The translations under genes and the position numbers were made by a program. A stretch of DNA of 64,000 bases from assembly GCF_004104375.1 (NCBI RefSeq), contig NZ_QOVM01000007.1, positions 1-64,000 on the forward strand, read 5' to 3'. The stretch is from Leeuwenhoekiella aequorea (GTDB lineage Bacteria > Bacteroidota > Bacteroidia > Flavobacteriales > Flavobacteriaceae). The notes under the pieces are model-generated. The model ran no database searches. It had not been told where the DNA came from and worked only from the letters and a program-made list of their open reading frames with translations. This document shows positions 1 to 26,496 of this stretch, piece after piece (within the stretch, counting starts at the first letter, position 1; every line of letters begins with the position of its first letter).

Positions 1-80
1 GTCACAAGCTTCACCGTATAACTTAACCTTAATCCTCTCTTTGTTCTTTCTAATTATACTATCAATTTAAAGAGAATCAA

Positions 81-216
81 ACTTAAGATGTATAACCGCA
101 ATTACGGCGGATTCGACTACGTCCGAATCCACTCGGAATTGCTAACGTCAGTGCTAAACCGAAAATTATTAACTTTAATCCCGTAACTGACGGTTATACG
201 AGACCGTTGTGAGCAA
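81..216 (+). other. attC-like cassette recombination site (attC0)
   Basis: This is the right-hand boundary of a cassette that starts outside the window. The outer arms pair as TATAACCG with CGGTTATA and ACGG with CCGT, and a central GGATTCG/CGAATCC hairpin lies between them. The right core reads GTTGTGAGCAA, with the expected recombination point between G206 and T207. The left core is degenerate: TTAAG stands where sister sites have CAAC. The body is nearly identical to the site at 4638-4778. Bases 1-80 hold no recognisable gene. Confidence 0.75.
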
Positions 217-280
217 GCTGAAAAAACGTCATTTCCTGAAATAGGTTGACCAAAAATCAATCATTTAATTCAGGATCAAG

Positions 281-661
281 ATGAAAGACAACATACCTCC
301 CTGCCAAAAAAAACAGTACCAAAAAGTAAGTTTTGAACTTAAGCTAATGATCATTGACCAAATACAGAATGGTCAGATCTCCGTTAATTACGCTGCTAAA
401 TCCTACAACGTTTCAAGATCTTCTATTGACTATTGGCTAAAAAAATACAGTACCTTAGAACAAAAGAAACGAGGTATGAGTAAACAAGATGAAATCAAAA
501 AGCTAAAAGACAAAATTGAAGAACTGGAATTTGTAAAAGAGTTTCAAAGGGATTACATCGCTAATCTCGAGAACTTATCAGGACTCGATCTAGCAAAAAA
601 GCATTTGCCCGAAGCATTGGCCAAAGAGATAGAAAAACGCAAAAGAGACCTTTTAAAATGA
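281..661 (+). CDS. IS3-family transposase OrfA
   Basis: This 126-aa protein would bind the element's ends as the N-terminal part of the transposase. Residues about 15-60 look like a helix-turn-helix (the segment NYAAKSYNVSRSSIDYWLKK), followed by a coiled-coil-like stretch from about 68 to 95 (KLKDKIEELEFVKEFQRDY), as in IS3 OrfA proteins. The stop overlaps a following ATG (ATGA at 658-661), so orfB is likely translated by coupling rather than by a slippery-site frameshift. The family call rests on this layout together with the DDE integrase core encoded next to it. It is a mobile gene rather than cassette cargo. Confidence 0.85.
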   Translation: MKDNIPPCQKKQYQKVSFELKLMIIDQIQNGQISVNYAAKSYNVSRSSIDYWLKKYSTLEQKKRGMSKQDEIKKLKDKIEELEFVKEFQRDYIANLENLSGLDLAKKHLPEALAKEIEKRKRDLLK

Positions 662-1520
662 AATGGGTTTATCAATGTTTCGGGATATCTAAACAAGCTT
701 TTACAAGCGTCTGGCAACACATCAAAAGTCCAACAAGCAAGAACTGGCAATTCTTGACCTTATTGAACAGGTCAGAAAAGAAATGCCCAAAACAGGCGGT
801 TTAAAACTATATAAATCAATCAAACCGGCTCTTGTTGAAAAGAATATTAAAATGGGCAGAGATCGCTTCTATTCACTTCTTAGAAGACATCGACTGCTCA
901 TACCCAGAACCAAAAGAGCACACATCACTACAAACTCTAAACATCACTTTTATAAATATCCTAATTTAGTTAAAGACTTCATTCCCCAAGCTGCAGAGCA
1001 GCTGTGGGTAAGTGATATCACCTATATTAAAACTGATGGAGGTAATGCGTATCTCGCGCTGGTAACAGATGCCTATTCTAAAAAAATAATGGGTTATAAA
1101 ATTGATGATCATATGAAAACAAGTCTTTGCATTGATGCATTACGAATGGCATTAACACAACGCAACTACCCACATCAAAAGCTCATTCACCATTCAGACC
1201 GCGGGTTGCAATACTGTAATCCTACTTATACCTCCTTTGCTGAATTAAACCAAATCAAAATCAGTATGATTCAGCAATATGACCCTTATGAGAATGCCGT
1301 AGCCGAACGAATCAACGGAATATTAAAACAGGAATTTGGATTGGGTAAAACAATTGTGAATCTTAAACTAGCTCAGAAAATGGTTAAAAAAGCAGTTAAA
1401 ATATACAACTCCAAACGAATGCACTACAGCCTGGAATTTAAAACTCCAAACCTCGCTCACTCAAATCAAAATCATAATTACAGACAATACAGAAAAATAC
1501 CGATATTAGTAACTCATTAA
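658..1520 (+). pseudogene. IS3-family transposase OrfB (DDE integrase core), frameshifted
   Basis: The reading frame starts at the ATG overlapping the orfA stop (MKWVYQCFGISKQAF) and then moves to another frame near position 700, in a run of T where one base seems to be missing. From there it continues intact to 1520 (YKRLATHQKS..., then the open frame beginning at 783). The catalytic triad is visible: Asp in WVSDITYIKT, Asp in HHSDRGLQY and Glu in NAVAERINGILK, so the core domain is whole. The break near residue 15 probably inactivates full-length OrfB, although a sequencing error in the homopolymer is possible. Translation from 783 alone would lack the N-terminal region. Confidence 0.8.
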
Positions 1521-1576
1521 AAACAAAATAGTAAACCGGCAACTGGTCAACCTATTTCAGTATAAGACAAAAAAAT

Positions 1577-2485
1577 ATGGAAACATTTATTGGAACAATA
1601 TCAGGAATTATAATTGGTGGTTTAATTACAGTATGGGCGAGTCGATATTTTTACAAAAAATCAGTTAAAGCGAAAACTTTATCTTGTTTCGTACAATACA
1701 TCAGTGAAATATTGACCAATATTGACCCTGAAGTTAAGAACAATCTAGAGGTTGATTTCAAAGGACAAAAAGTAGAGAGCTTATATCAAATACAATTCGT
1801 AATAGCAAATACAGGTGATATAGCTATTAGAAATATCATTTCCCCTTTAACACTAGAAATTCCAAATAATGGAACTATCCTAGATGCTAATCTGATAGAT
1901 ATCGAACCAGAAGGACGTGAGGTAAGCTTAGAAATCTCTGAACCTGGGAATGTTTCCAAATTAAACTTTCCACTTTTAAACTCTGGAGAGTTTTTTATAG
2001 TAAAACTTTTAATTAAAGGTGAAGTTCCTAGACCTACCGAGAAAGAAGTTGATGAAGATGGTATCTTTAGTATTTACGATAGAAAAGGATTTAACTTATA
2101 TAAATTTCAAATAACAGCAGACGATTTACCGCCAGTAATAAATAGCGAGCCATTACCAAGAGATTATTCCGAGTTTCGAAGTCTATATTTTGATAAAACA
2201 GTTATATGGGGAGGACTTATTTTTGGAGCAATTGCTTTTTTGTTAGCTTTTGTACTTTATCAGCTTACATACACAACCGAAGAATTATTTATATATCGAT
2301 TCAAACAGTTTTTCAGTAACTTTTCCTTTCTAAAATTTAGTATAATAATCGCTTGGTTACTAACAGTTTTTATCGCCATTTTAGCGATTTTTATACCTGC
2401 ATCTGAAATTCGGAATTTAAGACCTAAGAAAAAACTTAAGTTCACTTTGCCAAAGAAACATTCGAGATATTTTAGACCTTTTTAG
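1577..2485 (+). CDS. Hypothetical membrane protein (cassette cargo)
   Basis: This 302-aa protein belongs to no family I recognise. It has one hydrophobic segment at the N-terminus (about residues 4-24), a long soluble middle of beta-rich character (residues about 60-200, with NTGDIAIRNI and NSGEFFIVKLLI-like strands), and two hydrophobic segments near 212-233 and 250-272, ending in a basic tail. It is probably an inner-membrane protein with an exposed domain, but that is inference. It is the only gene of its cassette apart from the IS3 element, which has inserted just upstream and may have separated it from its promoter. The attC site follows 6 bp after the stop. Confidence 0.7.
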   Translation: METFIGTISGIIIGGLITVWASRYFYKKSVKAKTLSCFVQYISEILTNIDPEVKNNLEVDFKGQKVESLYQIQFVIANTGDIAIRNIISPLTLEIPNNGTILDANLIDIEPEGREVSLEISEPGNVSKLNFPLLNSGEFFIVKLLIKGEVPRPTEKEVDEDGIFSIYDRKGFNLYKFQITADDLPPVINSEPLPRDYSEFRSLYFDKTVIWGGLIFGAIAFLLAFVLYQLTYTTEELFIYRFKQFFSNFSFLKFSIIIAWLLTVFIAILAIFIPASEIRNLRPKKKLKFTLPKKHSRYFRPF

Positions 2486-2491
2486 AAAAGC

Positions 2492-2697
2492 CAGCTCACA
2501 ACAACGGCTATACGTAATGCGGGATTAAGTGTTTAACCGAAAGTTCAGGTATATTTGGAATACCGCCAAAACCTTGTTTTGGCTTTTTGAAATAATAAGA
2601 TAAAAAACCAGAAAACAAGGTTTTGGCTCTGTGCTCAACCGAAAGGAAAGTGCGTTTTTGTGCCCGCACTACTCATAGCCACGACCGTTGTGTGTAA
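2492..2697 (+). other. attC-like cassette recombination site (attC1)
   Basis: The left core (AGCTCAC-AAC, 2493-2502) pairs with the start of the same cassette at 206-214 (GTTGTGAGC), nine consecutive bases. The arms GGCTAT (2506-2511) and ATAGCC pair near the ends. The right core GTTGTGTGTAA begins at 2687 and opens the next cassette. At about 206 bp this is the longest site, because the middle carries an extra 16-bp inverted repeat (GCCAAAACCTTGTTTT and its complement). Confidence 0.85.
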
Positions 2698-2737
2698 TGC
2701 GACCAACCCAACAAACTAACTGAAAAACATCAAAATT

Positions 2738-2989
2738 ATGGCAAACTATTATTGCAAAAATTGCGGAACGAAATATTCAAGTATTTCGACAATGACAATC
2801 AATAAATGTGCAAGACATCCGAACGGAACAAACAAAGGTTCGCACGAACTTTACGAAGGAAGTGAAAAATCCCGTTACGAATGTAAATATTGCGGAACTA
2901 AATACAACAGCATCTCATCTATGACTGTGAATAGATGTGCAAGACATCCAAACGGAACGAATAAAGGACAACATTCACCAGCACTATAA
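2738..2989 (+). CDS. Small protein with tandem zinc-ribbon-like repeat
   Basis: This 83-aa protein consists of two near-identical copies of one 43-residue unit, C6 aligning with C49. Each unit shows CxxCGTKYxSISxMT, then C-A-R-H-P-N-G-T-N-K-G-x-H. The probable metal ligands are C6, C9, C24 and H27 (or H36), and C49, C52, C67 and H70 (or H79). I infer a small zinc-binding, possibly nucleic-acid-binding protein; no enzymatic motif is seen. It is the first gene of a two-gene cassette. The next ATG begins two bases after its stop, so the two proteins are probably made together. Confidence 0.75.
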   Translation: MANYYCKNCGTKYSSISTMTINKCARHPNGTNKGSHELYEGSEKSRYECKYCGTKYNSISSMTVNRCARHPNGTNKGQHSPAL

Positions 2990-2990
2990 A

Positions 2991-3686
2991 ATGGAAATAT
3001 TAACTTATCAAAATTGGTCTGACGATATCAAAACAAGTCTAACGGACTTGAAAAATAAACTTGACCAAAACGAAATCTCAAAATCTCTATATGGAGGATT
3101 TTATGTTTGGGATAGCAAATACATAGAAAATCCTGAAATTATGTTCATTGGAATTAATCCAGGAAATGGAAATCCCAACAATTCAGGAAAAGTTATTACA
3201 GAGCCAGAACATCAAATTTCATATATGGAATTTCTTGATGGCGAGAATCCAAATTACAGATTAGCCATAGAAACCATAAAGTCATTTGAAATGGCTGGTT
3301 TTTCAATTCCAGAGGTTAAGGAACTTCTCAATGAAAAGTCAATTAAGACAAACTTTTATTATCTGATAACAAAAAATCAAACTGATATTAGTAAATGTAT
3401 CAATCAACTTGACAATTATTCTTTCAACGATTTTTGGCAAAAAAGTTATGAATGGACTGGGCAACTTATTGAATTAACAAATCCAAAAGTTATTGTTTGC
3501 GAAGGTAAAAGCGTATTCGACACAATTCTGGACTATGACGATGTTTTAGAAACGGAATGGAAAAATGACTGTGGCTATTGTATTAGACCAAGTGGACAAG
3601 TAATAATCGGATACAACAGAATTTTTAGCAACATCAAAAACAAAGATGGATTTTCCGAACTAATTAAAAGATTTATAAAAAAATAA
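2991..3686 (+). CDS. Uracil-DNA-glycosylase-superfamily-like protein
   Basis: I start this 231-aa protein at 2991, one base past the stop of the zinc-ribbon gene; an upstream in-frame start at 2937 would overlap that gene by 53 bp. Residues 50-60 read IMFIGINPGNG, matching the GxNPG loop of the uracil-DNA glycosylase superfamily. The segment KVIVCEGKSVFD (about 160-175) and the late GYNRIFSNI (about 205-215) fit the other beta strand and C-terminal loop of that fold. Substrate and activity are not evident. Its pairing with a zinc-ribbon protein in one mobile cassette suggests nucleic-acid work, perhaps defence, but that is inference. Confidence 0.6.
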   Translation: MEILTYQNWSDDIKTSLTDLKNKLDQNEISKSLYGGFYVWDSKYIENPEIMFIGINPGNGNPNNSGKVITEPEHQISYMEFLDGENPNYRLAIETIKSFEMAGFSIPEVKELLNEKSIKTNFYYLITKNQTDISKCINQLDNYSFNDFWQKSYEWTGQLIELTNPKVIVCEGKSVFDTILDYDDVLETEWKNDCGYCIRPSGQVIIGYNRIFSNIKNKDGFSELIKRFIKK

Positions 3687-3691
3687 AAGCA

Positions 3692-3830
3692 CTACACACA
3701 ACAATGGCTATAAGTAATTGCTTGTTCTCGCCTACTTCTGAAAATCCTCGCGGATTTTCAGTTTGGTGCGTACTTGCAAAGTTCCGTACCAACCCACGCA
3801 ACTACTCATAGCCGAGACCGTTGTAAAACA
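3692..3830 (+). other. attC-like cassette recombination site (attC2)
   Basis: The left core TACACAC-AAC (3693-3702) is the exact complement of the start of its own cassette (2687-2696). The arms GGCTATAAGTA and CTCATAGCC pair, with a central hairpin GAAAATCC-TCGC-GGATTTTC. The right core GTTGTAAAACA starts at 3820. The invariant C lies at 3692, just outside the pairing. Confidence 0.88.
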
Positions 3831-3842
3831 TTTTGACCAAAA

Positions 3843-4280
3843 ATGAGAATACCGATTTTAATATTGACATTTTTACTTTCAAGCATCGGATTTGCCCAAG
3901 ATAATATCAATCCGAAAGAATTAATTGGATTTGGATGTTATGCTGGCGGAACAAGTTCGGATGTTGTGAATGATTTTACTTTTGACTTACACGATAATAA
4001 GTACAAAAAAGTAATTAAGAAACTAAACTCTAAAAATCCAGCGGAAAGGTATTTAGCGGTAATAGTTGCGGAAAGGTTAGCCGAATTGAATAAATACGAG
4101 CTGACAGAAACTGACAAAGGACTAATAAAAAAAGCCTACGAATCAAACGATTTGGTTTCTGTTTGTTCAGGATGCACATATTTCGACCAAATCGAGTTGA
4201 AAAAGCTACTCTCAAAAGAGAAAGAAAATTTTATGTGGACTTATGCAGAATTCTGGTTAGAAGAATATATCAAGAAATGA
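3843..4280 (+). CDS. Hypothetical secreted protein
   Basis: This 145-aa protein starts with a clear signal peptide (MRIPILILTFLLSSIGFAQ, cleavage probably after residue 18-19). The mature part is about 125 residues, with several cysteines (in GFGCYAGG and SVCSGCTYFDQ) that could form disulfides, and a helical middle (NPAERYLAVIVAERLAELNKYE). I recognise no family. The stop overlaps the start of the following gene in an ATGA, so the two genes of this cassette are translationally coupled. The cassette start lies only 23 bp upstream of this ATG. Confidence 0.7.
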   Translation: MRIPILILTFLLSSIGFAQDNINPKELIGFGCYAGGTSSDVVNDFTFDLHDNKYKKVIKKLNSKNPAERYLAVIVAERLAELNKYELTETDKGLIKKAYESNDLVSVCSGCTYFDQIELKKLLSKEKENFMWTYAEFWLEEYIKK

Positions 4281-4633
4281 ATTCACCAATAAACATTTAT
4301 AGTTCAAACGCAAAAATTGAACTTCCTGTTGGAATTTATAGCGTCAAAGTTCTTGGAGGTTGGGGAGTTGAAGTTGGTAATTTTTCGTTCGATTTAAAAA
4401 ATGTCGATAACGGACAAATTATAAAACCCAAAGGAACTCAGTGGAGAATTCAATCATTTGCTTTTAAAAAACGAGCGAAGAAGATTTTTACTCTTGATAT
4501 TGGACAAAGAGGAAACTTTGAAATTGAATTTAAAAACCAGAAAGATTTAAAAGTAAGACGGTCGAATTTATTTTTAACGAGATTATTTGAAAATGAATTA
4601 CCAAACGAAAATTTAGAAATATGCATCGGATAA
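4277..4633 (+). CDS. Hypothetical protein, second gene of the cassette
   Basis: This 118-aa protein begins at the ATG at 4277, which overlaps the stop of the previous gene; the longer in-frame extension upstream would run inside that gene and is rejected. It has no signal peptide. The sequence looks beta-rich (KIELPVGIYSVKVLGGWGVEVGNFSFDLKNV, and later FTLDIGQRGNFEIEFKN) and ends in a basic then acidic tail. No family is recognised. The overlap with a secreted-protein gene suggests a pair, such as an effector with a partner, but nothing in the sequence proves this. Confidence 0.6.
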   Translation: MNSPINIYSSNAKIELPVGIYSVKVLGGWGVEVGNFSFDLKNVDNGQIIKPKGTQWRIQSFAFKKRAKKIFTLDIGQRGNFEIEFKNQKDLKVRRSNLFLTRLFENELPNENLEICIG

Positions 4634-4637
4634 AAAA

Positions 4638-4778
4638 CGTTTTACAACAATGTATAACCGCAATTACGGCGGATTCGACTACGTTCGAATCCACTCGGAA
4701 TTGCTAAAGTCTGTGCCAAACCGAAAATTAATGCATATTAACCCGTAACTGACGGTTATACGAGACCGTTGGGCATAA
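4638..4778 (+). other. attC-like cassette recombination site (attC3)
   Basis: The left core GTTTTAC-AAC (4639-4648) is the complement of its cassette's start at 3820-3829. The arms TATAACCG and CGGTTATA pair, and a central GGATTCG/CGAATCC hairpin is present. The right core GTTGGGCATAA starts at 4768. The body is almost identical to attC0 (81-216). Confidence 0.88.
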
Positions 4779-4800
4779 TTAAGAAAATCACTAATTAAAA

Positions 4801-5781
4801 ATGGACAAAAGATATCAAGTTTTTGTAAGTTCTACATATGCTGATTTAAAAGATGAGCGTTCGCAAGTAATACAAACAATAATGGAAATGGATTGTATTC
4901 CTGCTGGAATGGAAATTTTCCCAGCTTTAGACGAAGAACAATTAAATTTCATAAAACGAGTTATTGATGATTGCGATTATTATATAGTTATAATTGGAGG
5001 TAGATATGGTTCATTATCAGAAGACGGATTAAGCTACACAGAAAAGGAGTTTGATTATGCTTGCGAAAAGAAGATAAAAGTCATAGCATTAGTTCACGAA
5101 AATCCAGATAAAATTCCAGTTAGCAAATCTGATATTGACCCTGATTTAAGGGAGAAACTCGAGAATTTCAGAAACAAAGTGACAACTGGAAGATTAGTCA
5201 AGTTCTGGAATAAAGCAGAGGACTTACCAGGTCTTGTCGCCTTAAGTCTTCAAAAAACTATTAAAACATACCCAGCGATAGGTTGGGTTAGGTCTAATAC
5301 AGTTGGAAATACCGAAATCTTATCTGAGGTTAATGAATTACGGAAAGAAAACAATAAACTAAAAGAGGAAATTGAACAAATAGAAAAAAATGACAGTAAC
5401 CCAATTTTCATTTCGGAGAAAGAGTTAGCCGGTTTAGACGACACTTTTTCATTTAAAGCAGGTTCAGGTTCAGCTAGTGAAGAATTTAAAATGACTTGGG
5501 GAGAAATTTTTTATATCATTTCACCATATCTTTTGGAACATCCTGCTGATTCAAATGTAAAAAGATACCTTGCGCAGAGAATTTTAGAAAAGTTTGAAAA
5601 ATCTACTGTTTACGCAATAATAAAAGAAGATGATTTCAACACTATGAAAGTTCATTTAAGTTCATTAAGTCTCATAAATGTTAAATACAGTAAAAGTACT
5701 AATGGCGGAATGTCTTTGTTTTGGAGTTTAACTGAGAAAGGTCTAAAAACAATGAAAGAATTAAGAAGTGTGAAAAAATAA
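4801..5781 (+). CDS. DUF4062 domain protein
   Basis: This 326-aa protein opens with a DUF4062 domain at residues about 4-100: [19 protein letters not shown], then a GMEIFPA-type turn, [15 protein letters not shown] and [10 protein letters not shown], all typical of the family. A coiled coil follows (about 178-200, [20 protein letters not shown]). The C-terminal third (about 225-320) looks like a winged-helix or similar small helical domain. DUF4062 is often found at the N-terminus of signalling or defence proteins with ATPase or TIR-like partners; here it stands without an NTPase. It is the sole gene of its cassette and no partner protein is evident. Confidence 0.8.
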
Positions 5782-5922
5782 CTATGCCCAACACCGTGTA
5801 TAATTAATTGCTTGTTTCTAGCCTACTTACGAATATTCCTACGGAATATTCTATTCGGTTTTTATTTGCTAAATTAGTTGCTCAAACACACAACTAATCA
5901 TACACAAACACGTTCTACGCAA
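5782..5922 (+). other. attC-like cassette recombination site (attC4)
   Basis: The left core TATGCCC-AAC (5783-5792) is the exact complement of the cassette start at 4768-4777. The inner arms are GTGTAT and ATACAC, and a central hairpin is formed by GAATATTC and its palindromic copy. The right core GTTCTACGCAA starts at 5912. The site directly abuts the stop codon of the DUF4062 gene. Confidence 0.88.
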
Positions 5923-5923
5923 T

Positions 5924-6478
5924 TTGACAAACTTACTAAAAATATTAATTCTGCTTATGCTTTTTGTTTCATGTAGAACAGAAGAGAAACCACAATTGGC
6001 TAAATCGAACTTTTCAATACAAAACGATTATACAGAATTGACCAATAAAATAACTGAATTGGATACAATAAAAATTTGGGTTGGCTTAAGTCAATGTTTG
6101 TTCCAAGGTGTAGAAAAACTAACAATCACACGAGAAAAGGACTCACTGAAGGTACAACCGGAATTTGCCGAGTCAATGGTAATTGGTGCTGAGTTTAAGA
6201 AAATTAAACCCGTTTTTATTTCTGTAAATGACACCACTTGGAAATTTAATGAGTTCTTAAAAAGGAATAAAAATAGACTGAATCTAGACAGCCTAAAATA
6301 TGGTAGATTACAGATTACCTATAAAAAAAAGAGGTTAAACTTTATGACTGTTGGATTGGGAGATAATGCAAAATTTCTGATTGATTACTGCAAAACAATG
6401 AAAAATATAATGCCTGACAGCGATTATCATATCTACACAGGAATTGAAATAGAAGATCCAGAATTAATAACGCAATAA
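5924..6478 (+). CDS. Hypothetical lipoprotein
   Basis: This 184-aa protein is read from a TTG at 5924, two bases after the cassette core. The N-terminus MTNLLKILILLMLFVSC is a lipoprotein signal with Cys17 as the lipidated residue. The next in-frame ATG (residue 12) would remove most of the hydrophobic stretch, so TTG is preferred. The mature part has no recognised domain. It is the only gene of the cassette; its start lies so close to the recombination point that transcription must come from upstream, or from a promoter inside the attC site. Confidence 0.6.
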   Translation: MTNLLKILILLMLFVSCRTEEKPQLAKSNFSIQNDYTELTNKITELDTIKIWVGLSQCLFQGVEKLTITREKDSLKVQPEFAESMVIGAEFKKIKPVFISVNDTTWKFNEFLKRNKNRLNLDSLKYGRLQITYKKKRLNFMTVGLGDNAKFLIDYCKTMKNIMPDSDYHIYTGIEIEDPELITQ

Positions 6479-6482
6479 GAAA

Positions 6483-6622
6483 CTGCGTAGAACAATGGCT
6501 ATATACCATAGCTTCTTCCCTGCACTTTTGGAAAATCCTACAGACTTGCTCCCGTCAGTTTCTTTTTGCTATCTTAGTTACAAAACCACGCTACGACACA
6601 TAGCCTAAAACGTTAGCCTTTA
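6483..6622 (+). other. attC-like cassette recombination site (attC5)
   Basis: The left core TGCGTAG-AAC (6484-6493) is the exact complement of the cassette start at 5912-5921. The arms GGCTAT and ATAGCC pair. The middle is more degenerate than in its sisters. The right core GTTAGCCTTTA starts at 6612. Confidence 0.85.
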
Positions 6623-6646
6623 TTAAAAAAACACTTTGGCAAATAA

Positions 6647-7459
6647 ATGAACTTATCTCTACCAAAACCTATAATACGTAATCAAAAGAATCAGACAGAA
6701 TTCCGGTGGAAAACCTTTTGGTGCTTATTAACTATGTTCGTTATAGCAGCCATTGCTAATATACCTCATTCTAGAGCTGTTAAAGAATTAACTTCTAAAG
6801 CTAGTGAATTGGAGAACTCTTCAATTCTTCAATCAATAATTTCAAATGGAGTAACTTCTTTAATTATTGGCTCTATCCTTATTTGGATTGGATTATGGGT
6901 ATCTGCTAAAGCAAACCTTGGAGCACCTTTAATTGTAGAAAAATTATCTGGAAAACCATTTTCTGAGGTTTTTAATAAAAAAATAGTCTTTGCAAGTATA
7001 TTTATCGGTATCATTTTAGGGGTATTTATTCTAGGGTTACTTAAAATTCAAGAATTTATACTTCCAATAGGTACTGCAAAAGCTAAACATCCTTCTGCAA
7101 TTCCTAATCTATTTGCATCATTTTCAGCTGGAATTACTGAAGAAATAATATTCCGTTTAGGTATTATGTCATTAATTGTAACGGTAATTAAATACATTAT
7201 TAAAACAAAAAAAGCTTCCAATCGAATAGTATGGACTGGAAATATAATAACTGCTTTATTATTTGGACTTATTCATATTCCAATGTCAAGTAATTATTTC
7301 GACCAATCACCAATTGTAATCGGAACTATAATATTGGGAAATGTGATAACAGGAACAACATTTGGTTGGATATTTTGGCGTTATGGCTTAATAATGGCTA
7401 TGATAGTCCATTTTATTTCGGATGTTGTTCTTCACGTAATTGGTTCGCCATTCGGATAA
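6647..7459 (+). CDS. CPBP family intramembrane metalloprotease
   Basis: This 270-aa polytopic membrane protein carries the three motifs of the CAAX-processing/bacteriocin-immunity (CPBP) family. These are EEIIFR at residues 165-170, FGLIHIP with His210, and a late HFISDVV motif (His near 257). About seven hydrophobic segments are visible. Members cleave substrates within the membrane, and some act in bacteriocin immunity. A lone CPBP gene on a mobile cassette fits an immunity role, but the substrate cannot be inferred. The N-terminus (about 20 polar residues) precedes the first membrane segment. Confidence 0.85.
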   Translation: MNLSLPKPIIRNQKNQTEFRWKTFWCLLTMFVIAAIANIPHSRAVKELTSKASELENSSILQSIISNGVTSLIIGSILIWIGLWVSAKANLGAPLIVEKLSGKPFSEVFNKKIVFASIFIGIILGVFILGLLKIQEFILPIGTAKAKHPSAIPNLFASFSAGITEEIIFRLGIMSLIVTVIKYIIKTKKASNRIVWTGNIITALLFGLIHIPMSSNYFDQSPIVIGTIILGNVITGTTFGWIFWRYGLIMAMIVHFISDVVLHVIGSPFG

Positions 7460-7484
7460 ATAATTACTGAAAATTGAAAAATAA

Positions 7485-7623
7485 CAAAGGCTAACACCGT
7501 GTATAATTAATGGCTGGTTCTCGCCTACTTACGAAAATCCTCGCGGATTTTCTATTCGGTTTTTATTTGCTAAATTAGGTGCTAAAACACGCCACTAATC
7601 ATACACAAAACCGTTAGCAGTTA
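7485..7623 (+). other. attC-like cassette recombination site (attC6)
   Basis: The left core AAAGGCT-AAC (7486-7495) is the exact complement of the cassette start at 6612-6621. The arms GTGTAT and ATACAC pair, with a central hairpin GAAAATCC-TCGC-GGATTTTC. The right core GTTAGCAGTTA starts at 7613. Confidence 0.88.
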
Positions 7624-7631
7624 TTTGGGAA

Positions 7632-8651
7632 ATGACATCGAGAAAAACAAACATCAAGCAACATTATGTGCCTCAATTCTATTTGAGAAACTTCGCTGAT
7701 GAAAATGAGAAGTTTTTTGTTTTTGATGTTAATAGAGAAAATAAATATCAAACTTCCCCAAAAAAAGAATGTTACGAAAAACTTCTTTATGATATAAATC
7801 CTGATATTCTGAATAAATTTAGTGACCATTCAGAAAATTACGAAGAAATTGTTGATGACAATATTAGAATCTTAAACGAGGAAGTTTCTGCTATTTTATT
7901 GAACTTCCTAGATAGAACTATAAAATCTGAAAAAGACTTTAAATTTGAAAGATCTGAAAGGGAGAAATTATATGACTTCATATTATTACAAACTTTTAGG
8001 ACACCATTTTATAGGGAAAGACTAGGATATTTAGGTGTTTCATTTGCTTTAAAGACTGGAGTTAAAGATTTAGAAGACAAAGAGTTTTTAGATGTAATCC
8101 ATAATTTACTAATATTCGGAATTATTGAGCAACTTTATGGGTTAGACTTCAAATTAAACAAAACTTACCACCTGTTTTTTGACCATTTAATTGACGAAAT
8201 TTTAAATATTAAAACTCAATTAAGAAATGCTGGAAAGTTATTTTTATTAAATAAATCAAAAGAACACTTTATTACAACCAACACACCAATTAACATTCGG
8301 TGGAAACCAGATTTTCTTGCTTACCATAGAGCTTTAATGACATTTCCTGGAGAAGATAAACCTGTAGTTGATATTGGAAATTATATTGAGTTTTTAACAA
8401 TACACCTACCTATATCAAGTGATTTTTCTATTTTTATTTTCGAAAAAGAACTTGACAAAAATCTCACGGAATTGAATCGAGGTATTGGAATAATTAGAGA
8501 TTGGAATTCTGATTTGATTACAAATTTAAACTATAGTACATTTCTGAAAAGTTCTGACAAAGTCATCTCTAAAACAAATGATTTTGAGAAATATGTAGAA
8601 ATGAAAAAACAAAGACAAAACCCAGCTATGAATTTCAGATTTAGCGAATAA
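7632..8651 (+). CDS. DUF4238 domain protein
   Basis: This 339-aa soluble protein starts with the DUF4238 signature: KQHYVPQFYLRNFADENEKFFVFD at residues about 8-32, followed by a stretch ending in CYEKLLYDI. Later features of the family are a helical middle and ITTNTPINI near residue 215, where family members show a conserved T-x-D/N-x-P-type turn. The function of DUF4238 is not known to me. It is the only gene of its cassette, starting 19 bp after the recombination point. The attC site behind it is split by the IS1182-family element. Confidence 0.8.
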   Translation: MTSRKTNIKQHYVPQFYLRNFADENEKFFVFDVNRENKYQTSPKKECYEKLLYDINPDILNKFSDHSENYEEIVDDNIRILNEEVSAILLNFLDRTIKSEKDFKFERSEREKLYDFILLQTFRTPFYRERLGYLGVSFALKTGVKDLEDKEFLDVIHNLLIFGIIEQLYGLDFKLNKTYHLFFDHLIDEILNIKTQLRNAGKLFLLNKSKEHFITTNTPINIRWKPDFLAYHRALMTFPGEDKPVVDIGNYIEFLTIHLPISSDFSIFIFEKELDKNLTELNRGIGIIRDWNSDLITNLNYSTFLKSSDKVISKTNDFEKYVEMKKQRQNPAMNFRFSE

Positions 8652-8654
8652 AAA

Positions 8655-8669
8655 CAACTGCTAACACCG
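8655..8669 (+). other. Left fragment of attC7, interrupted by an IS
   Basis: The left core AACTGCT-AAC (8656-8665) is the exact complement of the cassette start at 7613-7622. Four more attC bases (ACCG) follow before the IS1182-family element begins. The rest of the site resumes at 10396. Confidence 0.8.
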
Positions 8670-10395
8670 GTAACCGTTGCACAAGCCTCTAATTCTCAGA
8701 AAATCTCACTTATTTAAACCGCTTTTAGAGCGGTTTTTCTTTTTTTGATCATCTGGATTTAGACCAAATTCAGAACCGTTAAAACGTATTTATCGAGGGT
8801 TATCAGTCTGTTTTCCAGAGAAAAAAATGAAGCGAGCATCCCTGCCCCACTTTTGGTGCGTTTTTCAATAAACTTCAGGTACTTCTTGAGGTTGTAGGCT
8901 ATGGCGGATAGCTGCATACATTTGTTGGCCTGTTTTAACCCTAAGGTGTTTACTTTTCTCAGACCCATAAACTGAGTTAAGGTTCCAAAGACAGGTTCTA
9001 CGGTACTTTGTCGTTTGCCTTTCATATACCTGCCCTGAGGGCTTTCTACCCGGGCGATGTTACGCTGGTATTCTGCGCGGTAGTAAGTAACACTAAACTT
9101 CTTTTCCTGTGCGCTTTTGCCCAGACAGCTGCTGCGTATAGGACAATCAATACACACGTGCTTGCGGGCACGGTATTCCTTTTTTCGGGTTCCGGTTCTA
9201 TAATCGTTGAACTCTTTGGTAAACGGGATTATTTTGTCCTGTGGACACAGATAATGATCCTGATTTTCAACATACTTAAACCCATCGGGACCGCCTTTAA
9301 AAGTTCCGTGGGCAGGTATAAAACTCTTTAGGCTCTGTGCTTCTAAAAATGCGTAGTTCTCGCCGCTACTATATCCCGTATCGGCTACACAATTCTCCCA
9401 CACCAAACCCTGCTGCCACAAGCGCCGCTTTACCCGTTTAACAATATCGGCCAGTTGCTGGTTATCTTTTCCATCTGCGTGGTACGCTCTGATATCTGTA
9501 ATCACGTGATGACCCGTATCTACACTAAGCTGGCTCAGATAATTGAGTTTTCTGGCCTTGCCCGGTTTTACACTAATCCGTGCATCAGGATCGGTAGGGC
9601 TGTAATGGGTTTTATTGCTGGTGTACTTACTTCCCTTATTTCCTGCTCCCGGACGCTGATCCTGATCTTTGCTCCAGCGCTTGTTGCGGGTGCTAATGGC
9701 TTTTAATTCTTCTTCGCTGGCAGTTATGCTGCGCTGGCTCTTATCTGATTTATCGCCTTTGCTCTTACGAAACGGCTGCTCTTTGTCCATAGCACTGATA
9801 TGGCGTATTCTGCGCAAGTGAGATTCTAGTTCTTCCTCAGGTACTTTAAGTTCCAGAGTGTCCATCGAGGCATTGGCTTTTACAGGAGCACTGTCTATAG
9901 CCTGAGTATGGCCACTTACCATTCCGGCTTCTACACAAAGCGTGAACACTTTAGTAAAAACAGATTCAAACACATCTTCAGGGAACAACTGCCGTGTACG
10001 ACTAATGGTGGAATGCCAGGGCAACTCCTCATCAATATCATAACTGATGAAATACAGGATATCCAAACGCATACTGCAATGATCAATAAGCTTCCGGTCA
10101 CTGATGATATTCTCTAAATAGCCCACTAAGCACAGCTTAAAAAACACAACGGGATCTATACTTTTTTGACCACTGCTTCCGTAAAAGTCACGGGTAAGTT
10201 CATAAAGAAAATCCAGGTTCAACGCACCCTTTAGACGCCGGTAGAAATTTGTGGAGGGTACGCGATCACTCAAGCGAAAACTGTTGAACAACTGCTCTTG
10301 ATATACTTTCTTTCCTTGCATACCATGAATTTACAACAGCCAAGTAAATATACCATTCCTTGAATGTTACATTTTTGCTAACTTGTGCAACAGGC
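8670..10395 (-). mobile_element. IS1182-family insertion sequence
   Basis: This element of about 1.73 kb lies inside an attC site. Both ends carry the inverted repeat GTTGCACAAG (8676-8685) and CTTGTGCAAC (10382-10391). ACACCG occurs on both sides (8664-8669 and 10396-10401) and joins the two attC halves correctly, so I take it as a 6-bp target duplication; the exact ends may shift by a few bases. One long intact transposase is read on the minus strand. A short hairpin with a T run (AAACCGC...GCGGTTTTT) near 8715-8743 lies just downstream of the transposase. Confidence 0.85.
8759..10321 (-). CDS. IS1182-family transposase
   Basis: This intact 520-aa transposase has the DUF772-like N-terminal domain (FYRRLKGALNLDFLYE, SIDPVVFFKLCLVGYLENI), a central DDE part (AIDSAPVKANASM, then KLNYLSQLSVDTGHHVI and ENCVADTGYSSGENY), and a C-terminal region with CxxC clusters (HVCIDCPIRSSCLG) and RQSTVEPVFGTLTQFMGLR carrying the late catalytic Glu. 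This layout is typical of the IS1182 family. With no frame breaks the element could still be active. Codon composition is richer in GC than the flanking cassettes, which suggests a recent arrival from a different background. Confidence 0.92.
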   Translation of the reverse strand: MQGKKVYQEQLFNSFRLSDRVPSTNFYRRLKGALNLDFLYELTRDFYGSSGQKSIDPVVFFKLCLVGYLENIISDRKLIDHCSMRLDILYFISYDIDEELPWHSTISRTRQLFPEDVFESVFTKVFTLCVEAGMVSGHTQAIDSAPVKANASMDTLELKVPEEELESHLRRIRHISAMDKEQPFRKSKGDKSDKSQRSITASEEELKAISTRNKRWSKDQDQRPGAGNKGSKYTSNKTHYSPTDPDARISVKPGKARKLNYLSQLSVDTGHHVITDIRAYHADGKDNQQLADIVKRVKRRLWQQGLVWENCVADTGYSSGENYAFLEAQSLKSFIPAHGTFKGGPDGFKYVENQDHYLCPQDKIIPFTKEFNDYRTGTRKKEYRARKHVCIDCPIRSSCLGKSAQEKKFSVTYYRAEYQRNIARVESPQGRYMKGKRQSTVEPVFGTLTQFMGLRKVNTLGLKQANKCMQLSAIAYNLKKYLKFIEKRTKSGAGMLASFFSLENRLITLDKYVLTVLNLV

Positions 10396-10529
10396 ACACC
10401 GTGTATAATTAATTGCTTTGGCAAGTGCTTATTTGGAAAATTCCTTCGGAATTTTCTCGCGTTCGTTTTTGTTTACTAAATTAGTTGCTGAAACACGCAA
10501 CTAACCATACACAACAACGTTGGGTACAA
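10396..10529 (+). other. Right fragment of attC7, interrupted by an IS
   Basis: This continues the attC site cut at 8669: GTGTATAATTAATTGC pairs with GCAACTAACCATACAC, with a central hairpin GGAAAATTCC-TTC-GGAATTTTC. The right core GTTGGGTACAA starts at 10519 and opens the next cassette. Removing the IS and one copy of ACACCG restores a site of the same type as attC4 and attC6. Confidence 0.85.
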
Positions 10530-10548
10530 TTACCGAAAAACGAACTGA

Positions 10549-11481
10549 ATGAACAAAATATTAGCATTTTCAATTACAATCATACTATTTGGAATTCATA
10601 AAATTTCAGCTCAAAATTATCTGAATTACTACGAAACAATAAACAAAGCTGAAATTGAAAATCTTGATGGAAATTTCAAAAAATCTGATTCACTCTATCG
10701 AATCGCATTTAAACTTGTTGAGAAACCTTTTAAAGATGATTTACTATTAGCTTCTATCAATTCTGAAAATCTAAATGACAATCAAAAAACTTACGAATAC
10801 CTGAAAAAAGGAATTTCAGTTGGCTTAACTAAAAAAAGAATAAGAAAAGAACTTTCAGAGTTTAAAAAGTCTGTCAAGTGGAAACCTTTAAAGAAAGAGT
10901 ATGATTTAATAAGAGAAAATTACTTAAAGTCCTTGAATTTGACTTTGAGAAATGAACTTCTCAAAATGGTTGAGGAAGACCAATCTGCCCGACATCCAAT
11001 TTTTGGTAGTTGGAAAAAAATGAAAAAAACTGACACTTATAATCATAATCATCTTTTAGAAATAATAAAAGAGAATATTGGAAAATGGCCAGGGAGAATT
11101 AATATTGGTGATGGAAATGAAGATGGAAAATATGCTTACGGAGAAATAACCATTATGTTACATCACTTCTCAACAGAACAAGTAATGAATTTAAAACCAA
11201 TTTTAATTGAAGCTATTTTAAATGGGAATTTATCCCCTTATAATATTGCTTATCCATTAGACTATAAAAACTTAAAAACAATAGCAAAAAGAAAAAGAGG
11301 AAATACAATTTTTGTAGAGACTTGTAATATCATTGGCTCTTATCTTGGTTCAAAAAGTAAGGAAGCAATTATTTGCGATTGTGAAACAGCAGAGAAAGAG
11401 CGAAAAAGAATTGGATTAGAACCATTGAAAGACTATTTCCGAAAAAGAAATTCGAATTATAAATGTTATGAACAAAAATAA
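10549..11481 (+). CDS. Hypothetical secreted protein
   Basis: This 310-aa protein has a signal peptide (MNKILAFSITIILFGIHKISAQ). Residues about 30-120 look like two or three TPR-type helical hairpins (NYYETINKAEIENLDGNFKKSDSLYRIAF...). Later, INIGDGNEDGKYAYGEITIMLHHFS is distinctive, and a C-terminal cysteine-bearing segment (IICDCETAEKERKRIGLEPL) follows. I recognise no enzyme family. It is the only gene of its cassette, with the start 29 bp past the recombination point. The left core of its attC abuts the stop codon, and the rest of that attC is replaced by an IS110-type remnant. Confidence 0.7.
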   Translation: MNKILAFSITIILFGIHKISAQNYLNYYETINKAEIENLDGNFKKSDSLYRIAFKLVEKPFKDDLLLASINSENLNDNQKTYEYLKKGISVGLTKKRIRKELSEFKKSVKWKPLKKEYDLIRENYLKSLNLTLRNELLKMVEEDQSARHPIFGSWKKMKKTDTYNHNHLLEIIKENIGKWPGRINIGDGNEDGKYAYGEITIMLHHFSTEQVMNLKPILIEAILNGNLSPYNIAYPLDYKNLKTIAKRKRGNTIFVETCNIIGSYLGSKSKEAIICDCETAEKERKRIGLEPLKDYFRKRNSNYKCYEQK

Positions 11482-11492
11482 CTGTACCCAAC
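11482..11492 (+). other. Left core of attC8, cut by an IS110-family element
   Basis: C-TGTACCC-AAC is the exact complement of the cassette start at 10519-10528, so this is the left core of the attC belonging to the secreted-protein cassette. Immediately after AAC the sequence changes to the end of an IS110-family element (AAAGAACTGAGGT). Confidence 0.85.
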
Positions 11493-12131
11493 AAAGAACT
11501 GAGGTAAAAAACAACTCTTTTCTTGATTAAATTTGAGACATAGGTATCCTTTGCTAAAATCTGTAGTTACAGATCTTAACTGTTTCACTTTTTCATTTTG
11601 GAGCTATCCTTTATGTAGAACAGACACATAATTTTCATCGTAGGGCAATCCTGATTTAGCGATAGCAAAAGCCTGCTTTAAAAGCTTATTAGCCACTGCA
11701 ATTAATGCCAGTTTTTTACTCTTACCCTTAGCTACGATTCGATCGTAAATTTCCTTGCAACCTTTGTTGTATTTACATGCATTGAACGCGCACAAAAACA
11801 ATAGGTTCCTTAGCTTTTTGTTTCCCATTTTACTGATCCTGCTTCTGCCTCTTACGCTACTCCCAGATTCCCGTATTGTCGGGGTGACTCCTACATAACT
11901 GCACAGTTGAGAGGCCTTCTCAATCTTAGAGAAGCCATCTGTTATCACAACTAAAAATAAGGCCGTTTTAATACCGATACCAGGTATACTTGTTAATAAA
12001 GTGAATTTAAATGATGGTAAATTTTCAGAATTTTGTATGGTTGGTGTATATGTGATTGACCAAAAACTGAAAAGAATAGCGTAAGTAGCCAACGCAAGTT
12101 CAAGCACATTTAAAGTTTGCTCGTACCTCAC
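11493..12131 (-). mobile_element. IS110-family element remnant, copy 1
   Basis: This is the end of an IS110-family element that lies exactly at the left core of an attC site. About 110 bp of non-coding DNA (11493-11603) separates the boundary from the transposase stop and contains a short dyad CTGTAGTTACAG. The same end sequence recurs at 14028, again directly after a CAAC core. The other end is lost: the transposase is missing its N-terminal half, and the sequence changes to unrelated cassette DNA somewhere around 12000-12131. At least one cassette was damaged or deleted in the process. Confidence 0.75.
11604..12131 (-). pseudogene. IS110-family transposase, C-terminal part only
   Basis: The recognisable part is the C-terminal transposase domain: SIPGIGIKTALFLVV, then LCSYVGVTPTIRESGSSVRGRSRISKMGNKKLRNLLF, which is the conserved helix-hairpin-helix and Ser-bearing region of IS110 transposases. 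The N-terminal RuvC-like DEDD domain is absent. The first about 35 codons of this frame (from a GTG at 12131) probably come from cassette DNA joined at the deletion point and are not part of the transposase. The gene is therefore a truncated, probably inactive copy. Confidence 0.8.
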
Positions 12132-12182
12132 AAATTTAAAAGAGCTTTCACGCCAACACTAGCAAGTTTGCGGAAAGAAAGC

Positions 12183-12284
12183 CAGTCGGCAACACCGTGT
12201 ATTAAACATAGCTAATAAGTACTTGTCCAAAAGTTTCGTGCTTTTAAATCGCCTACTTTTCATATACAAAACCGTTAAAACTAA
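12183..12284 (+). other. attC-like site of a lost cassette
   Basis: The left core C-AGTCGGC-AAC (12183-12193) has no partner cassette start in the window, so the 5' part of its cassette is gone, presumably removed with the IS110 event. The arms GTGTAT and ATATAC pair. The right core GTTAAAACTAA starts at 12274. About 102 bp long, it lacks the central hairpin of its sisters. On the minus strand just left of it (12132-12193) a short open frame remains that may be the end of the lost cassette gene. Confidence 0.75.
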
Positions 12285-23918: not shown

Positions 23919-23999
23919 TTAATGCCTTACATTTATCTTAAAATCAGTTTTTAACTAATTGTAACTAGTTGCAAGCATTTAAAAATGAATAGTTAAAGG

Positions 24000-24040
24000 A
24001 AATATAAGTGCTTGTACTTATATTTGGTTGTTGTGGGTAA
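24000..24040 (+). other. Hairpin and cassette core at the left edge of array B
   Basis: AAATATAAGT (24000-24009) and ACTTATATTT (24016-24025) form a perfect 10-bp stem with a 6-nt loop. Five bases later the core GTTGTGGGTAA starts at 24030, and its first ten bases are exactly complementary to the left core at 25190-25199. It therefore is the left edge of a cassette. The hairpin could be a minimal attC (its TATAAGT arm resembles GGCTATAAGT of other sites), an attI-like site or a decayed site. Which of these is not clear. Confidence 0.6.
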
Positions 24041-24064
24041 TGTAAACCAACCTAAGAAAAAAGA

Positions 24065-25183
24065 ATGAATATAGAAAGCTTACTTAATAAAATCAAAATT
24101 TTCAAAGAACTAGTAGTTGATTCTGGTTTCAAAAGAGATGTTACGGACTATCGCCAATCAATTGGACAACCTCAAAATCAAAACTTAGTTTTTATGAAAA
24201 GTTTGTCACAGAATATTAAAACAAATTTAATTGACTTTGAAAATAATTCTCTTGATAGTGAACTTCATAGCGTCTTAAGAGACAATGAGCCATTTACTAC
24301 TCTAAACACGTTAGAGGAATTGGAAGAGCTGGATAACGACAAAGAAATTGATGGACAAAAATATTTACAAAAATTTTTAGCCATTCTAACTCAACTTCAA
24401 AAATCTATAACAGCCAACGAAACGGAATTAAATACTGTAAAATCAACATTTGACAAATACGTTTCTGACCAAAATGAATATGATACTGAAGGAGAACAAG
24501 CAGTAATGTCGCTAATATTTAAAGACCTTGAATCAACAGGAAGTATAAAGGAGTTTGCAAGAGTCTTACAAAGATGGAATAGAACTTTATTGACTTATCA
24601 TACACTTCTAAAATCGGAATCACCAAAAGAAATTTCATTAGTAGAAATTCAAAATGGCTCGATTGACGTCATATTCAATATTGACTTTGATGTTGCTGTA
24701 GATTTAACAGAACTAATAAAAACTGGACTTAAAGTTTACGGAGCTTATCTTTTATACAAATCCAAGAAAGCAAGAGAAATTATCGATTCATATATGGGTA
24801 ATACTAAGTTAATTGAAATGGAAGTTGAACGAGAAAAACTAATGCTTGACAATATTAAAGGTTCAATAAAACAAAAAGCAATTGAACAACATAAACAACG
24901 ATTATCTGAGGATAAAAACATTTCCAAAACGAGTGCAACTAAAAAAGCAGATGAAGTTGCAAAAGTTATAACAGACCACATTATTAAAGGAAATGAAGTG
25001 AAACTTTTAACACCACCTGAAATCGATGAAGAATTAGAAGATGAAAAAGATTTAGGTAGCGAATTACGAGAAGAAACAGCTATTGTTCGTGAAAGATACA
25101 AGAAACTTAATGTTGAAGAAAAACAGCTTCTACTGGAAAAATATACAATAAAGGAAGAAGACGAAAGCACCGAAAAGAAATAA
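24065..25183 (+). CDS. Hypothetical protein with central hydrophobic segment
   Basis: This 372-aa protein has no family I recognise. The N-terminal half (1-170) is helical and acidic. The middle reads EISLVEIQNGSIDVIFNIDFDVAVDLTELIKTGLKVYGAYLLYKS (about 190-235), a beta hairpin running into an amphipathic or membrane helix, which is seen in several uncharacterised bacterial proteins. The C-terminal part is a charged coiled coil (LIEMEVEREKLMLDNIKGS...) ending in an acidic tail. It is the sole gene of its cassette, which has perfect 10-bp core pairing at both ends. Confidence 0.65.
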   Translation: MNIESLLNKIKIFKELVVDSGFKRDVTDYRQSIGQPQNQNLVFMKSLSQNIKTNLIDFENNSLDSELHSVLRDNEPFTTLNTLEELEELDNDKEIDGQKYLQKFLAILTQLQKSITANETELNTVKSTFDKYVSDQNEYDTEGEQAVMSLIFKDLESTGSIKEFARVLQRWNRTLLTYHTLLKSESPKEISLVEIQNGSIDVIFNIDFDVAVDLTELIKTGLKVYGAYLLYKSKKAREIIDSYMGNTKLIEMEVEREKLMLDNIKGSIKQKAIEQHKQRLSEDKNISKTSATKKADEVAKVITDHIIKGNEVKLLTPPEIDEELEDEKDLGSELREETAIVRERYKKLNVEEKQLLLEKYTIKEEDESTEKK

Positions 25184-25188
25184 AAACA

Positions 25189-25327
25189 CTACCCACAACA
25201 ACGTGTATAATTAATGGCTAGTTCTCGCATACTTACGAAAATCCTTGCGGATTTTCTATTCGGTTTGTATTTGCTAAATTAGGTGCTTAAACACGCCACT
25301 AATCATATACTGGAACGTTGTACATAA
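25189..25327 (+). other. attC-like cassette recombination site (attC-B1)
   Basis: The left core TACCCAC-AAC (25190-25199) is the exact complement of the cassette start at 24030-24039. The arms GTGTATAATTAATGGC and GCCACTAATCATATAC pair, and the central hairpin is GAAAATCC-TTGC-GGATTTTC. The right core GTTGTACATAA starts at 25317. The body is nearly the same as attC6 in array A, linking the two arrays. Confidence 0.88.
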
Positions 25328-25367
25328 TGCAAAAAACTCATCGATTAAAAATAAACTTTAGGATAAT

Positions 25368-25703
25368 ATGACAAAAAACGAATGGGAAAAACTGTATGGA
25401 ATTCTAGATAATGAACACTCAACTTTTTTGTTAGAATATCCAACAATGAGAAATGAAAAGAATAAAAAAATAAGAGGAGATGCTGAAAGAAAAGTAAATA
25501 ATAGCATCCGACTTTCTTGCACTTGGATTCAAAAATATGGAGAAGCTTTTAATCTTTTAACAGGTGGAGATGAAACCAGCGATTTTGGTAGAGCTATTAT
25601 TTGGGACGAATTCGTAAGACCTAACTATTTTGGAGGCGATATGTCTGAATTTCTTGAAAAGATTAAGAAAAAAATAGCTTCAATGGATAAAGAAAACAAT
25701 TAA
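25368..25703 (+). CDS. Hypothetical protein, first gene of the TIR cassette
   Basis: This 111-aa soluble protein has no recognised family. It is helical at the start (EWEKLYGILDNEHSTFLLEYPTMRNEKNKK), then shows SCTWIQKYGEAFNLL and a distinctive GRAIIWDEFVRPNYFGGDMSEFLEKI. It lies 18 bp upstream of the DUF1883-TIR gene in the same cassette, so the two are likely co-expressed, and it could be a partner, regulator or antidote of that protein. The sequence alone does not say which. Confidence 0.6.
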   Translation: MTKNEWEKLYGILDNEHSTFLLEYPTMRNEKNKKIRGDAERKVNNSIRLSCTWIQKYGEAFNLLTGGDETSDFGRAIIWDEFVRPNYFGGDMSEFLEKIKKKIASMDKENN

Positions 25704-26492: not shown

Positions 26493-26496
26493 AGTA

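Follow-up and report, generated by a model that had tools for sequence, protein, structure and literature searches.

What moves the gene cassettes of an array that has no integrase beside it? The question is raised by a stretch of 64,000 nucleotides (nt) from Leeuwenhoekiella aequorea (Flavobacteriaceae), hereafter the window, which is contig C7 of its assembly (NZ_QOVM01000007.1; C2, C6, and C9 are other contigs of the same assembly) and which carries, between positions 88 and 12277, a run of small genes separated by long imperfect inverted repeats. An earlier note on this DNA took the run for a cassette array with self-complementary cores, belonging to an integron whose integrase (IntI) lies elsewhere or was lost. 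The array, its cores, and the location of a recombinase elsewhere in the assembly were borne out by our analysis, but an ordinary integron was not: the recombinase that stands beside sister arrays lacks the IntI insert. We conclude with considerable confidence that the system functions in the manner of an integron whose recombinase is not IntI, although recombination itself is deduced. It is not an integron by the usual definition, because the insert that defines the integrase is absent.

The cassette boundaries of the window show this logic. In seven cassettes (starting at 2687, 3820, 4768, 5912, 6612, 7613, and 10519) the first ten bases are complementary to the cassette's own 3' end, and nine leading bases are so in the cassette starting at 206, exactly as had been noticed before. 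When the eight starts were compared with the eight ends, the leading match between a start and a foreign end never exceeded 6 bases. Base 11 is a fixed A/C mismatch (A at the start, C at the 3' end) in 7/8 cassettes, and pairing resumes beyond it, with a total of 13/14 bases in seven cassettes and 12/14 in the first; off-diagonal totals reach at most 11/14, a value that comes from the similar cores of the cassettes at 4768 and 10519. Long cores alone are not new, since the R boxes of canonical attC sites, as described in PMC2727003, already span 9–11 consecutive complementary bases. A covariance model of the sites (R1), built from 61 sites including three from the window, gave 11 full-length matches in the window, scoring between 47.2 and 129.2 bits, nine of which belong to this array and the other two to a smaller one (24000–26626) that the earlier note did not list; a weak partial match (22.9 bits) lies at 16867. 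The expected folding of the bottom strand was found for 8/11 of these sites, which beat dinucleotide shuffles with z-scores between -2.9 and -5.6.

The same construction recurs far beyond the window. Our collection, drawn from the window and 35 loci, comprises 254 unique cassettes, which begin with GTT-N7-A-TT and end with AAC-N7-AAC; their sites are mostly 120–130 or 180–190 nt long and end in GTT. The leading core match is 9–10 bases in 238/254 cassettes, compared with 1.0% for random partners, with the reservation that this cassette walk was looser (a core of 7, or 11/14 with a core of 5), that positions 1–7 were thus partly selected, and that a few chance cassettes are possible. Positions 8, 9, 10, 12, 13, and 14, which lie outside the selection, are paired in 249, 243, 203, 229, 235, and 192 of the 254 cassettes, respectively, while position 11 shows A against C on the top strand, i.e., a T.G wobble below, in 223. 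The longest open reading frame (ORF) is longer on the array strand in 300/317 cassettes.

The sites are strongly asymmetric between strands. The 234 L stems contain 611 pairs that are a mismatch on the top strand and a T.G wobble on the bottom strand, compared with 85 of the opposite kind; per site, the lean is to the bottom strand in 211, to the top strand in 3, and tied in 20. In terms of DNA folding energy, the bottom strand is more stable in 225/251 sites and the top strand in 25, whereas among 242 control stretches of the same length inside cassettes the figures are 70 for the bottom strand and 168 for the opposite. Of the 61 sites in the alignment, 60 retain the A.C pair at columns 31/128, while other stem positions change on both sides, e.g., columns 20/138 (A-T in 24, G-C in 18, and C-G in 17). 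No column of the L'' arm in this alignment has a conserved extra base; the stem scorer placed a bulge in this arm in 28/234 sites. The canonical R' consensus, GTTRRRY, is matched by only 11/254 cassettes.

The candidate enzyme is encoded on C6 (locus L009), where a tyrosine recombinase gene, a palindrome, and then cassettes follow each other in the same direction. Among 149 rows of this recombinase and its homologues, the catalytic set RKHRHY is complete in 144, and the insert of about 42 residues typical of IntI is absent: the Lys-His spacing is 63–69 residues in 146/149 rows (the other three are truncated), compared with 106 in 8/8 IntI rows, and the phmmer alignment of the recombinase skips residues 179–241 of VchIntIA. 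The enzyme scores 198.7 bits against TIGR02249, below the cut-off of 265, and 223.6 bits against NF040815 (XerA), above the cut-off of 220. In a tree, the 15 IntI rows form one group (support 100/99) that contains none of the 43 non-IntI rows; the latter need not be a single group, and their place in the tree is approximate. The recombinase further carries an extra N-terminus of about 100 residues; residues 1–101 are hardly covered among the fold matches listed, the N-terminus not having been searched alone. No occurrence of the recombinase in viral contigs was confirmed. The C6 locus is adjoined, at L009:5181-14000, by phage-like genes and another tyrosine recombinase, larger than the first (ORFs judged by eye). 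The 395-kb plasmid of Persicobacter sp. JZB09 (L089) encodes a homologue of 42% identity with two matches of the site model nearby; the array walk from it yielded no array.

Arrays begin directly downstream of this recombinase in many genomes. At E <= 1e-60, a homologue was found in 106/199 Flavobacteriaceae genomes, and the looser walk gave at least one cassette in 35/41 rows, which comprise the C6 locus and 40 fetched regions, a subset of the family matches. A strict test (array start no more than 185 bp from the end of the recombinase match, core of 8, 11/14 in total, stem of 24) was positive in 29/36 family rows, 14/26 phylum rows, and 23/51 named rows; these slightly overlapping sets comprise rows with at least 900 bp downstream, shorter ones having been dropped beforehand. 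The controls were positive in 1/596 windows, 561 of which come from the named set; they lie upstream and end at the recombinase, and so leave somewhat less room for a partner. Positive named loci include those of Arenibacter arenosicollis, Arcticiflavibacter luteus, Aquimarina algiphila, Winogradskyella ursingii, Aequorivita sinensis, a Cellulophaga, Flavobacterium aciduliphilum, F. difficile, F. psychrophilum, a Pedobacter, and Algoriphagus ornithinivorans, while those of Zunongwangia and Pontibacter were negative or too short. A looser version (core of 8, stem of 18) was rejected, as it accepted 35/51 named loci but also 162/555 control windows.

Two further elements accompany the recombinase. 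A divergent gene encoding a zinc-ribbon protein of about 125 aa, with the motif CxxC...GRsDKkfCxxxC, adjoins it (on C6, L009:4523-4897, + strand) and was found in 49/58 close homologues (at least 51.5% identity, with enough sequence), in 9/67 homologues at 40–50%, and in 0/22 below 40%. In a family-wide search for this protein, 35 of the 41 closest matches (E <= 2.3e-34) stand beside a recombinase match, the two lists having been compared by eye; a homologue of some kind (E <= 1e-10), mostly a remoter paralogue, occurs in 168/199 genomes. The protein has no Pfam match over the cut-off, and its model has no match in the PDB at E <= 0.001. The second element is the palindrome between the recombinase and the first cassette. 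A hairpin score of at least 9 was obtained for 43/116 leaders, compared with 0.4% of shuffles, although the score is the best over candidate GTTs and thus slightly favors the observed value; the palindrome lies 4–7 nt from the GTT in 62/116 leaders. It is present in most, but not all, close homologues (low scorers include L044, L047, L058, and L067). The Bacteroidota -7 element, TAnnTTTG, occurs in 38/140 leaders, taken as the interval between recombinase and array, compared with 56/973 control windows, and may mark a cassette promoter.

Traces of cassette movement are seen as identical units at different positions. In the locus L044 (genome G080), five cassette-plus-site units of 425, 439, 473 (three copies), 497, and 2010 bp recur with 100% identity at non-adjacent positions; the identity starts 0–3 nt before the GTT and stops 0–5 nt after the GTT of the site, and one copy of the 473-bp unit stands directly after the recombinase leader, at the palindrome. 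An identical unit of the same kind (776 bp) was found in Arenibacter arenosicollis (L124), and in both loci identical cassettes occupy the array start and the interior of the array. The identical copies in L063 were rejected as evidence of movement, since a longer duplication includes them. A comparison of 317 cassettes between loci yielded six pairs with 66–91% nucleotide identity. Homologous pairs below 100% identity have the same N7 in 7/14 cases, down to 40% protein identity; with 139 different N7 in existence, two cassettes would share one by chance in 0.9% of cases. One pair, whose proteins are 94% identical, has cores with four differing positions, changed alike in both ends, and the two ends of a cassette may be kept alike either by selection for self-pairing or by a copying process.

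The absence of an integrase from the window itself agrees with the earlier note: a tblastn search found no Int homologue within the window. This absence is probably an effect of the assembly, because the window begins at a contig break in a repeat whose other flank would be C6 or C2. Positions 1–95 of the window are 98% identical to C9:1-95, and the left end of the element at window position 11494, an insertion sequence (IS) of the IS110 type, recurs at window position 14025, at C6:1-86, and at C2:1-86. The left flanks on C6 and C2 both terminate in a cassette 3' end (...AACA), and the right flanks, in the window and on C9, both continue into the remainder of a normal site. We infer from these sequences that two copies of the element broke the assembly, with their left ends on C6 and C2 and their right ends on C7 and C9; the window array would then continue into C6 or C2. 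The elements at 11493 and 14025 and at position 86 of both L009 (C6) and L086 (C2) have the same insertion point in their sites, after AACA.

These data suggest the following course of events. The locus consists of a divergent zinc-ribbon gene, the recombinase gene, a palindrome of about 22 nt after its stop codon, a spacer of about 6 nt, and a GTT serving as an attI-like insertion point, followed by co-directional cassettes, an anatomy observed at C6 and shared by most close homologues. A cassette in circular form would present its site with the bottom strand folded, so that the cassette-specific N7 core pairs with itself into an R box of about 14 bp next to the L box. The recombinase would then exchange strands at the GTT, the partner being either the attI-like palindrome or a further site, and so insert or move the cassette, and the choice of strand would come from the fixed T.G wobbles of the bottom strand instead of extrahelical bases. 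The first array of the window is probably the part of a larger array that lies beyond the IS110-type insertion that broke the assembly, and its enzyme is most likely the C6 recombinase, acting in cis should C6 and C7 be neighbors and in trans otherwise. A role for the zinc-ribbon protein, a folded attI, and one enzyme for several platforms are things that we infer. More speculative, and as a whole rather less likely than not, is the joint proposal of a phylum-wide second kind of integron working from hairpin to hairpin, in which the insert-less recombinase reads folded sites, probably with the help of its N-terminal domain and of the zinc-ribbon protein, attI too is a hairpin instead of a double-stranded site, one enzyme serves the platforms on C6, on C2, and at window position 24000, and the 7-base self-paired barcode can outlast the gene.

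Several points weigh against the preferred interpretation of an integron-like system with a non-IntI recombinase. Recombination, cassette circles, and recombinase activity are all deduced from sequence, and so is the assignment of window positions 1–87 to an IS110-type copy, of which they would form the right end. With two left and two right ends, C6 and C2 are indistinguishable as the neighbor of the window, the other one joining C9. For three of the 11 sites in the window, folding does not beat that of shuffles (6489–6616, z -0.7; 12187–12279, z +0.8; and 26503–26628, z +1.2). The strict array test was negative in 7/36 family, 12/26 phylum, and 28/51 named rows, including the C6 locus of L. 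aequorea itself, whose first cassette pairs over 10/14 bases; since 19 of the 28 negative named rows have less than 50% identity, remote homologues are tied less firmly to arrays. Finally, 72/177 site-positive family genomes have no recombinase at E <= 1e-60. This last figure, together with the several other tyrosine recombinases encoded in the genome, would also suit the alternative in which the cassettes are moved by XerC/D, another recombinase, or an IS transposase, the adjacent recombinase serving a different element. We consider this very unlikely, as the array start lies no more than 185 bp from the recombinase match end in 66/113 eligible rows of the three sets, and the recombinase is found in 105/177 site-positive genomes compared with 1/22 site-negative ones (Fisher p 7e-7), a comparison in which two of the 22 are negative by elimination only and genome size is a confounder, site-negative genomes tending to be small.

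A cluster of attC sites lacking integron integrases (CALIN), either the residue of a canonical IntI integron or mobilized by one in trans, would account for the cassette logic, the GTT boundary, and the bottom-strand folding, which are all attC-like. Canonical IntI does exist in the phylum: 105/395 genomes exceed the curated cut-off, and 2/15 fetched canonical IntI regions (L225 and L226) have chains of at least three cassettes with self-pairing cores of 10–14 bases. Yet no IntI over the cut-off was found in the L. aequorea genome or in any of the 199 family genomes (up to 10 candidates scored per genome), though the site model, with up to 15 candidates scored per genome, has matches in 177 of them. 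The phylum count shows that the IntI search works, although the controls of the family search were silent too; weak E-value matches of the IntI model appear in all 14 control genomes and are uninformative alone. One of the 107 phylum genomes with an IntI match belongs to the same class. Moreover, the arrays begin directly after a non-IntI recombinase and rarely follow GTTRRRY, whereas the L225 array is divergent from its IntI, with cores that pair past position 11 in 3/4 cassettes. An origin as CALIN is thus quite unlikely. One genome (G214) has, at L225 and L228 (on its contigs C32 and C30), both a canonical IntI locus and a non-IntI recombinase with an array. Still less credible, to the point of being extremely unlikely, is the interpretation of the repeats as RNA hairpins such as terminators, or as an intergenic repeat resembling miniature inverted-repeat transposable elements. 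The repeats do follow genes, folding is good in most of them, and many genera have near-identical alleles; but the wobbles favor the bottom strand, opposite to an RNA in the cassette direction, the cores are matched cassette by cassette, the arrays are headed by a recombinase and a palindrome, and the identical units ending at GTT contradict it strongly.

In the first window array, where at least nine units separated by repeats had been described, we count eight cassettes, all on the + strand, plus a remnant, and find two junctions split by other elements and a third element inside the first cassette. The contig-start repeat (1–87, taken as the IS110-type right end) has removed the 5' part of an attC-like site at 88–208 (R1 match at 79–219, 72.5 bits; 91% identical to 4650–4771). 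Cassette 1 (206–2502) contains a gene with no assigned function (1577–2485) and an IS3 element (transposase genes 281–661 and 783–1520, inverted ends 228–252 and 1544–1568), and is followed by a 190-nt site at 2500–2689 (57 bits, z -5.1). Cassette 2 (2687–3702) has two genes, at 2738–2989, with weak zinc-ribbon matches under the cut-off, and at 2991–3686, without assigned function; its 123-nt site lies at 3700–3822 (114.3 bits, z -5.6). Cassette 3 (3820–4648; genes 3843–4280 and 4277–4633, no assigned function) has a partial relative of its left part in genome G101 (79% over window positions 3809–4281) and a 125-nt site at 4646–4770 (106.3 bits, z -4.9). Cassette 4 (4768–5792) encodes a DUF4062 protein (Pfam; 4801–5781) and has a 125-nt site at 5790–5914 (108.4 bits, z -4.2), whereas the 124-nt site of cassette 5 (5912–6493; gene 5924–6478, no assigned function) at 6491–6614 folds weakly (84.9 bits, z -0.7). 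Cassette 6 (6612–7495), with a CPBP/Rce1-like gene (Pfam; 6647–7459), has a relative in genome G154 (74% over window positions 6600–7466) and a 123-nt site at 7493–7615 (129.2 bits, z -2.9). The site of cassette 7 (7613–8665; DUF4238 gene, Pfam, 7632–8651) at 8663–10521 is split by an IS1182 element (transposase gene 8759–10321, - strand), its right part being matched at 10385–10532 (92.3 bits). Cassette 8 (10519–11492; gene 10549–11481, no assigned function) is followed, after the AACA of its site, by an IS110-type remnant (Transposase_20, Pfam; 11494–12131, - strand) and by the degenerate final site of the array at 12190–12277 (47.2 bits, z +0.8). The site alleles at 3700–3822, 4646–4770, and 7493–7615 recur at 86–98% identity in many genera, and 138/199 genomes match part of window positions 1577–8662 (E <= 1e-30), mostly in the sites among the rows listed. 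At gathering scores, the sole Rfam match in the window is a Flavo-1 RNA (34881–34958, - strand), upstream of a gene that looks by eye like dnaK.

The second window array, also on the + strand, begins with an attI-like palindrome at 24000–24025 that has no adjoining recombinase. Its cassette 1 (24030–25199; gene 24065–25183, no assigned function; core of 10) is followed by a site at 25197–25319 (116.7 bits, z -3.3), and its cassette 2 (25317–26507; core of 10), encoding a protein with DUF1883 and TIR domains (25722–26492), by a degenerate site at 26505–26626 (54.5 bits, z +1.2), where the cassette walk ends. The DUF1883-TIR product resembles antiphage TIR proteins; of 10 proteins run through PADLOC, 8 had no match. 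Another recombinase-less array, on the - strand of C2 (L086), is headed by a palindrome nearly the same as that of C6, at about position 2036 in + coordinates; this palindrome and that at window position 24000 are the solo attI-like palindromes of the genome. The C2 platform and window positions 23963–23984 have the upstream motif AACTAGTTRCAAGCRTTTAAAA in common. As a family feature this motif was rejected: among 199 genomes it occurs in two places of the L. aequorea genome and in one place elsewhere (with 2 mismatches), and its backwards control pattern has one match in the same search.

A branch of integrons, elements known for the spread of antibiotic resistance, may have been overlooked, since its enzyme lacks the part by which integrons are recognized and found. 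An early survey picked integrases by the IntI insert (PMC2426708), and IntegronFinder 2 is reported to give, besides those of Chlorobi and Ignavibacteriae, one complete integron in Bacteroidetes, that of Salinibacter ruber (PMC9024848). No title among the literature matches listed, which include no preprints and few subscription papers, describes such a system, although it may be in print. If the interpretation is correct, most sampled Flavobacteriaceae genomes carry cassette sites that such surveys would not link to an integrase, cassette recombination does not need the IntI insert, and the origin of integrons can be studied through an insert-less relative. The same interpretation suggests that environmental bacteria have a large reservoir of cassette genes, and it offers a natural comparison for the recognition of folded single strands.

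Among known systems, the window alone would be read as CALIN, with the difference that the same genome also has, probably on the far side of a contig end that an IS broke, a recombinase locus whose sites are alike. XerA resolves chromosome dimers at dif; the enzyme described here, which matches the XerA family NF040815 (site-specific tyrosine recombinase/integron integrase), differs in heading cassette arrays and in its N-terminal extension. Insert-less relatives are already on record at the sequence level, because the integron insertion is not fully conserved in the 'Integron-like' subgroup of tyrosine recombinases (PMC8138268); as described there, that subgroup, of which the present enzyme is a possible member, is not tied to cassette arrays. 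The IS110-type elements resemble the IS1111-attC group (PMC11187229) in inserting into sites, but their targets are non-IntI sites, and they were classed by Transposase_20 alone. With integrons proper, the system has in common self-complementary cassette ends, the GTT junction, hairpin sites built of R and L boxes with an unequal spacer, a bottom-strand bias, a tyrosine recombinase beside the predicted insertion point, and co-directional cassette genes. IntI is usually divergent from its array, as is that of L225, whereas here the recombinase lies upstream of the array in the same direction. While an integron integrase is defined by the IntI-specific additional domain near patch III (PMC9668308) and the attC strand is, as described, chosen through extrahelical base(s) on the L'' arm (PMC2727003), the enzyme studied here has no such insert and bears an extra N-terminus of about 100 residues, its sites show fixed T.G wobbles with no conserved extra base on the L'' arm and do not follow GTTRRRY, and its array starts at a palindromic insertion point in the company of a zinc-ribbon gene.

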